In this document: piece after piece, positions 17,164 through 59,015 of the stretch
How positions within the stretch are numbered: the first letter of the stretch is position 1
Layout: each line of letters opens with the position of its first letter
Assembly: GCF_031624495.1 (NCBI RefSeq)
Contig: NZ_JAMQOP010000004.1
Span: 186,001-250,000, forward strand
Direction of reading: 5' to 3'
Source of the DNA: Halogeometricum sp. S1BR25-6
GTDB lineage: Archaea; Halobacteriota; Halobacteria; Halobacteriales; Haloferacaceae
DNA: 64,000 nucleotides
Notes under the pieces: generated by a model
What the model was told of the DNA's origin: nothing
Database searches by the model: none
Seen by the model: the letters and a program-made list of their open reading frames with translations, nothing else
Program-made: the position numbers and the translations under genes

Positions 17164-18369
17164 CTACTCTACCGCGCCCATCGACGCCAGCACCTCGTAG
17201 CAGGCGTTGACGTGGTGGTAGCCGCTCTTGACCTTCGGCGTCTCGTCGATGCTCGGGTGTATCTCGCCGTCCGGCGTGAGGCGTTCGTAGCGGATGCCCA
17301 GCGAGTGGTTCGTCGCGTACTCGTGCAGGTACTCCGCGATGCGCTCGTACCACTCCCAGTAGCGCTCTTCGCCCGTCGCGTCGGCGAGTCGGGCCGCGGC
17401 GCCGAGACCCTCTTCGAGCGCCCACGTGTACTTCGCCTCGACGATGGGCGACCCGTCGCGGTCGATGGTGTAGTAGAATCCGCCACGGTTGTCGTCCCAC
17501 CCGTCGGTCACGGAGGCGTCGAAGAACCGCTCCGCCCGGTCGAGATACCACTCGCCGTCGTGGTGAGCGTCGAGGCGGACGAGTAGCTTCGCCCACTCCA
17601 GCATGTGACCCGGCTGGTAGCCCCACGGGCGGAACAGGTCCGCCTTCTTCTCGCGGTTGTACTCCCAGTCTATCTCCCACTCCGACGTGAAGTGCTCGCA
17701 GAGGAGGCCGTCGGCCTCGTCCGGTTTGTCGCGGGCGATCGTCGTCGCGACGGTGACCGCTCGGTCGAGATACCGCTCCTCGCCGGTCGCCTCGTAGGCG
17801 GCGAGCAGCGCCTCCGTCGCGTGCATGTTCGCGTTCTGTCCACGGTAGCCGGGTTCGGCGGGGTCCCACTCCTCGGTTCGGTTGCTGGCGAAGGCGCCGT
17901 GCTCGGCCTCCCAGAAGTGCTCGTCGAGGATGTCGTACGTCTCCTCGATGCGACCCTCGACGTCGCCGATGCCGGCGCGCGTCGCGGTCGCGTAGGCGAG
18001 GAGGACGAAGGCGTGCCCGTACGTCGCCCGCGTGCCGTCCGTCGTCTCGCGCCCCTCAAACAGCCAACCGTACCCGCCGCGCTCCTCGTCGTAGGCGACG
18101 TTCCGGAGGTACGAGAGTCCGTGCTCGGCCGCCGGTTCGCACCACACCGGCCCGTCGAGGAGTTTTCCGACGCTGAACGCGAACACGAACCGCGCCGTCG
18201 GGACGAGGTGTTTCGTGCGCGAGTCGTAGATGGCGCCGTCGCGGTCGCTCACCTGCGCGACGTAGCCGCCGAAGTGCGTGTCCATCGAGCGTTCTCGGTG
18301 GAACCGGAGCGCGTCGACGGCGTCGCGTCGGAGCCACTCGGGCGACCGAGACGGAATCGGGTGCGTCAT
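17164..18369 (-). CDS. AGE family epimerase/isomerase (N-acylglucosamine 2-epimerase fold)
   Basis: A 401-residue (alpha/alpha)6-barrel protein. AGE members interconvert N-acetylglucosamine/N-acetylmannosamine, aldose/ketose pairs or cellobiose epimers with catalytic His residues. Supporting segments are HFGGYVAQVSDRDG, YGHAFVLLAYATA, NANMHATEALLAAYEATGE (with the His-containing motif), EHFTSEWEIDWEYNR, WGYQPGHMLEWAKLLVRLD and GYHHVNACYEVLAS. ATG 18369 (MTHPIPSRSPEW) is chosen, since the preceding 16 residues add nothing family-like. It probably leads a unit with the two genes downstream on the minus strand. Confidence 0.88.
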   Translation of the reverse strand: MTHPIPSRSPEWLRRDAVDALRFHRERSMDTHFGGYVAQVSDRDGAIYDSRTKHLVPTARFVFAFSVGKLLDGPVWCEPAAEHGLSYLRNVAYDEERGGYGWLFEGRETTDGTRATYGHAFVLLAYATATRAGIGDVEGRIEETYDILDEHFWEAEHGAFASNRTEEWDPAEPGYRGQNANMHATEALLAAYEATGEERYLDRAVTVATTIARDKPDEADGLLCEHFTSEWEIDWEYNREKKADLFRPWGYQPGHMLEWAKLLVRLDAHHDGEWYLDRAERFFDASVTDGWDDNRGGFYYTIDRDGSPIVEAKYTWALEEGLGAAARLADATGEERYWEWYERIAEYLHEYATNHSLGIRYERLTPDGEIHPSIDETPKVKSGYHHVNACYEVLASMGAVE

Positions 18370-18435
18370 ACCCTGCTTCTCTCCTGCGCGGTGGAAAAAG
18401 CCACCGGGTCGCCGCACCGACGCACTCGGAGACGA

Positions 18436-18521
18436 CTATCGTAGCGTCTGAAAGTCATCACACACTCGACCGCACGACGGCGTGCGGTCGGATGTGTAAA
18501 CAGTTGCAGACGCTACGATAG
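18436..18521. repeat. 86-bp hairpin repeat, copy A
   Basis: An almost fully self-complementary unit. CTATCGTAGCGTCTG (18436-18450) pairs perfectly with 18507-18521, and CGACCGCACG (18467-18476) pairs with CGTGCGGTCG (18481-18490) around a 4-base loop. A second copy with the same length and orientation lies at 58930-59015; I count 70 of 86 matching bases. The rest of the 353-base gap 18370-18722 shows no gene. Confidence 0.85.
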
Positions 18522-58929: not shown

Positions 58930-59015
58930 CTATAGTAGCGTTCGCAAGTCTTCACTCACTCGACCGCACAACACCGTACGGTCGGATGAGTAATCAGTTG
59001 CGAACACTACTATAG
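58930..59015. repeat. 86-bp hairpin repeat, copy B
   Basis: Same length and orientation as copy A at 18436-18521. CTATAGTAGCGTTCGCAA (58930-58947) pairs with 58998-59015 with one mismatch. It lies between the convergent folE and BCCT genes. Base changes relative to copy A occur in matching pairs (see findings). Confidence 0.85.

Follow-up and report, generated by a model that had tools for sequence, protein, structure and literature searches.

An 80-bp palindromic MITE family with TA target duplication in haloarchaea, probably moved in trans by an IS630-type transposase

Two distant hairpins, copy A (18436-18521) and copy B (58930-59015) of the window (the whole stretch of 64,000 nucleotides analysed here), are very probably copies of a non-autonomous IS630-type MITE that was moved in trans by an IS630 transposase since lost from this 4.5-Mb haloarchaeal genome (G000). 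The hairpin is a widespread, ordinary kind of genomic parasite and not a new RNA.

Results

Each of the two copies is a near-palindrome of 86 bp, and they have the same base at 70 of 86 positions, a figure of the preliminary description that our recount reproduced exactly. Their similarity (E 1.7e-17 for a search in one genome) is far above chance, and both fold much more strongly than dinucleotide shuffles (z from -8.8 to -10.9). The four double changes that had been reported to keep a pair (5-82, 13-74, 14-73 and 27-60 in the aligned count) were also found as stated. Five one-sided differences come in addition, with the pair lost in copy B at 10-77, 38-49, 41-46 and 43-44 and in copy A at 16-71; at 22-65 both sides changed between the copies and are unpaired in either. 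Conservation is sharply limited to TA-80 bp-TA, at 18437-18520 in copy A and 58931-59014 in copy B, and the outermost C/G of the 86-bp copies is part of the target site. The palindromic MITE of copy A occupies 18439-18518 between TAs at 18437-18438 and 18519-18520 and belongs to the CTG subfamily. That of copy B occupies 58933-59012 between TAs at 58931-58932 and 59013-59014 and belongs to the TTC subfamily, which is common to L018, L019 and L022. Neither element is assigned a strand.

Copy B is flanked by two genes with convergent 3′ ends, one for GTP cyclohydrolase I and one for a BCCT transporter. Upstream of a gene of the GlcNAc 2-epimerase family, copy A ends about 70 bp before the likely ATG (18368, minus strand; window 18369-18437), and it might influence the promoter of this gene. 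An Rfam scan of the window matched no model, and phage records gave no match.

The search for further copies that had been proposed brought the number in G000, with A and B included, to about 23, dispersed over contigs C1-C5 and C7, short (80 bp) and without coding capacity. The absence of other copies, named beforehand as a refuting outcome, was thus not what the search showed. Their consensus is CTATAGTAGCGTYTGCAAGTC...CAGTTGCARACGCTACTATAG, and similarity ends abruptly at the element termini. A covariance-model search of other haloarchaea, likewise proposed, covered 146 genomes sampled from the order; 40 of them carry the family, and many of these gave at least 30 candidates. The copies were nearly always about 86 bp long, and palindromy was maintained across the order together with this length. 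Further copies reside on plasmids of Haloferax mediterranei, Natrinema, Natronorubrum, Halobellus and Halomicrobium. No prior description of the 86-bp family was found in the literature searched, which did not cover ISfinder and most subscription papers.

Two G000 copies (L012 and L019) are also present in the congener G192 and are therefore older insertions. L013 (contig C7) and L016 (contig C5) sit at the same site in duplicated sequence, where G192 has a truncated copy. In G103, two loci (L306 and L307) carry hairpin pairs in head-to-tail tandem with an N at each junction, possibly an assembly artefact. In G033 (L158-L193), the copies vary at the two bases that adjoin the TA on its inner side (TA, TC, CA, TG; other strand), and the next dozen are nearly fixed. 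The same genome holds a minimal 38-bp element (L096 3074-3111; G033:C1:837573-837610) composed of only the two ~17-bp ends.

A 113-bp family of genus g2 has ~17-bp ends as in the hairpin around a different, non-palindromic interior; the ends are common and the interior is not, and therefore the ends are what counts. In G029 this family occurs at L051 12264-12376 and in further places, looks mobile, and agrees in size with the SMR-A repeats of Haloquadratum. Loci matching only half of the hairpin were considered as candidate autonomous elements and rejected, being 113-bp elements or decayed copies.

To locate empty sites, the joined flanks of 20 G000 copies were compared with five genomes of the genus, and full-length junction matches (89-97% identity) were aligned to the filled sites. 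The L004 site is empty in G193 (97%) and G192 (89%), those of L019 and L014 are empty in G193, and that of L009 is empty in G192. At all four sites the empty form has exactly one TA and the filled form TA-80 bp-TA, with the sequence otherwise unchanged. The hairpin is therefore mobile and duplicates a 2-bp TA target on insertion: the unit is the 80-bp element plus the duplicated TA, a net gain of 82 bp, as seen in L004, where it interrupts a GNAT acetyltransferase gene. The target TA often lies within CTAG. Copy B is missing from the homologous region of G193 (L149), in which the site itself has diverged.

An IS630/Tc1-mariner transposase is indicated by the duplicated TA and its frequent position in CTAG, the target preferred by IS630. 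ISY100, a member of the IS630 family, inserts into TA and duplicates it, and 30 bp from either end are enough for its mini-transposons to transpose normally (PMC2170065). To test the IS630 prediction that follows from the TA rule, we chose haloarchaeal IS630 transposases by the Pfam DDE_3 model and a scan of 84,980 genomes, and not by their ends. One subgroup of 1,059 bp (both TAs included) has ends of the form (C)TATAGTAR(N)CRTTAGAA.....CTCA, with left ends like TATAGTARYCGTTAGAACTTTYYRCTCA and right ends like TATAGTAGNCRTTAGAARTAATTGCTCAC. Hairpin arms and these IS630 ends have in the same fixed register TATAGTA, AA at positions 16-17 and a CTCA/CACA box at 25-28. Against the IS630 right-end profile, arm A outscored each of the 20,000 shuffles for all copies that were tested. 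Best identities to IS630 ends are about 18-24 of 30 per arm, with positions 14-15 consistently different, and reach 23-24 of 30 in the arms of a Natrinema plasmid copy (L049).

In copy A, arm A (18437..18466, plus strand, 30 nt with the TA) resembles the IS630 right end with a best identity of 21/30 in the fixed register, and 0 of 20,000 shuffles were as good. Its arm B (18491..18520, minus strand, 30 nt with the TA) is the second terminal inverted repeat; here, 1 of 20,000 shuffles was as good against IS right ends and 5 of 20,000 against left ends. Both 30-nt arms of copy B (TA included; arm A at 58931..58960, plus strand, and arm B at 58985..59014, minus strand) have a best identity of 22/30, in each case to an IS630 right end. 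At positions 13-17 the hairpin ends read TG(C/A)AA, whereas nearly all sampled IS630 ends read TAGAA, and most ends of other IS630 subgroups match the hairpin arms less well. In 58 of 70 copies, the resemblance of the left and right arms to left and right IS ends goes in the expected direction; because the copies are related, this correspondence is only suggestive.

IS630 elements were also found within hairpins. In G126, one IS630 lies inside a hairpin (L108 1363-2503) with the same TA duplication, and the uninterrupted sibling hairpin L308 has the corresponding empty site, AAC-TA-GTTGCAG, with a single TA. A second nested IS630 was found in G157 (L333, 1096 onward). At the 1,059-bp IS630 loci (L104, L108, L112 and others), the transposase is encoded in two frames split at an A run, e.g. 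CTCAAAAAAAGC in L104, which suggests programmed frameshifting.

The hairpin-rich genomes G000, G025 and G033 had no detectable DDE_3/IS630 transposase, and among the congeners only G192 has IS630 copies. Searching the 146 genomes for hairpin-type ends with an IS-like continuation gave only variant hairpins or solitary chance-like matches; an autonomous element whose ends agree exactly with those of the hairpin, TG(C/A)AA included, was not found in this set. When the ends listed for G033 were paired up, nearly all lay about 84-86 bp apart and no 1-kb pair was present. Hairpin and IS630 occur together in 16 of the 146 genomes versus about 12 expected (p = 0.10); this co-occurrence is not significant and was rejected as proof. 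A similar case is Haloquadratum, with mobile MITEs but no functional transposase in the genome (PMC3119063).

In 32 copies from several genera, 12 pairs showed two-sided changes (49 cells), exceeding all 500 shuffles, and the covariation is therefore real. However, the preliminary description had taken such changes to suggest selection on the folded form, which their distribution does not bear out. The changes at 13-74 and 14-73 are subfamily-wide (L018, L021, L022 and partly L019), and that at 5-82 occurs in L011 too. Private changes are mostly one-sided (one-sided to two-sided: 39 to 4 in the main subfamily of G000 and 67 to 4 in G033), and the majority of the one-sided changes within subfamilies break the pair. 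Therefore, selection on an RNA fold is unsupported, and the covariation is mostly an inherited subfamily difference rather than RNA function. The simplest account would be that the two ends of a source element evolve in concert, since a single protein has to recognise them both, and that copies decay once inserted. The remaining compensated doubles, at 5-82 (copy A and L011), 10-77 (L016) and 34-53 (L013), are slightly above expectation and could be made by templated correction between the arms.

Discussion

The element may be regarded as an 80-bp near-perfect palindrome with little beyond two ~30-bp transposon ends placed back to back. An IS630/Tc1-mariner DDE transposase, supplied in trans by an autonomous IS630 now absent from G000, would bind both ends, excise the element and insert it at TA, often in CTAG, with duplication of the TA. 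The repeat family, its precise empty sites, the IS630-like ends and the TA duplication, both of the hairpin and of the haloarchaeal IS630 itself, are direct observations; mobilisation by an IS630 transposase and the loss of the latter from G000 are what we infer.

Of the three readings offered originally, the palindrome moved in trans stood, with its ~23 copies, empty sites, TA duplication and IS630-type ends, while the RNA element and the protein-bound cruciform did not. That the hairpin is a functional structured RNA or cruciform with its fold under selection would agree with the strong folding, with the two-sided changes that outnumber those of every shuffle, and with the persistence of palindromy and length across the order. 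We nevertheless regard it as highly improbable: the element is mobile, its copies being scattered and matched by empty sites; within subfamilies, two-sided changes are much rarer than one-sided ones, most of which break pairs; the inner helix is one base out of register between subfamilies; Rfam gave no match; and the 113-bp sister family lacks such an interior. A use of the palindrome for the element itself has a somewhat better, though still small, chance of being correct, namely that the folded form (cruciform, extruded strand or RNA) helps transposition or protects the host while the lineage rides on changing transposases. One ~86-bp hairpin lineage runs across several haloarchaeal families with its symmetry kept (paired changes at 5, 10-14, 25-27 and 35) and its asymmetric internal loop kept.

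The lack of an IS630 transposase in G000, G025 and G033 and of an exact-end IS630 would also be expected if the MITE were mobilised by a transposase from a different family whose TA target and end sequences are alike by coincidence. This seems improbable to us, since the end profile, the spacing of the CTCA box and the TA duplication all agree with one IS630 subgroup, and other IS630 subgroups and ends match less well. Still less credible, to the point of being negligible, is a REP/REPIN-like palindrome moved as single-stranded DNA by a Y1 (RAYT/IS200-type) transposase, although the GTAG near the hairpin ends resembles GTAG-tagged REPs as outlined in PMC3733652. A REP/REPIN palindrome measures 20-40 bp, carries its GTAG outside the stem and makes no target duplication; the hairpin is an 80-bp unit that duplicates TA and has its GTAG base-paired within an outer stem of 18 bp. 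To our knowledge, TA duplication is not known from single-strand Y1 transposition.

With the haloarchaeal IS630 (1,059 bp including TAs, split transposase frame), the presumed IS630-type MITE has in common the TA target and its duplication, the TATAGTAR...CTCA ends and a C/G often outside the TA, but it differs in having no gene, a palindromic interior and TG(C/A)AA instead of TAGAA at positions 13-17. Eukaryotic Stowaway/Tc1-mariner MITEs are likewise short inverted-repeat elements with TA duplication, of the superfamily to which the hairpin presumably belongs; they live in other hosts and are likened here by features, not by sequence. Compared by description, SMR-A (~110 bp) and SMR-B HqIRS41 (80 bp) of Haloquadratum walsbyi are like the hairpin in length class, prominent inverted ends, strain-specific insertions and the lack of their own transposase, but they are described as lacking both a target duplication and ends like those of known transposons, and their mobilisation was termed enigmatic (PMC3119063).

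The hairpins thus represent a boundary-resolved, order-wide palindromic MITE family of haloarchaea, with a likely transposase family and a target rule. They also call for caution: when two copies of a palindromic transposon differ by paired changes, this does not count as evidence for an RNA. Finally, the family suggests an origin for the ‘enigmatic’ small mobile repeats of Haloquadratum, in which a TA duplication may have been missed.
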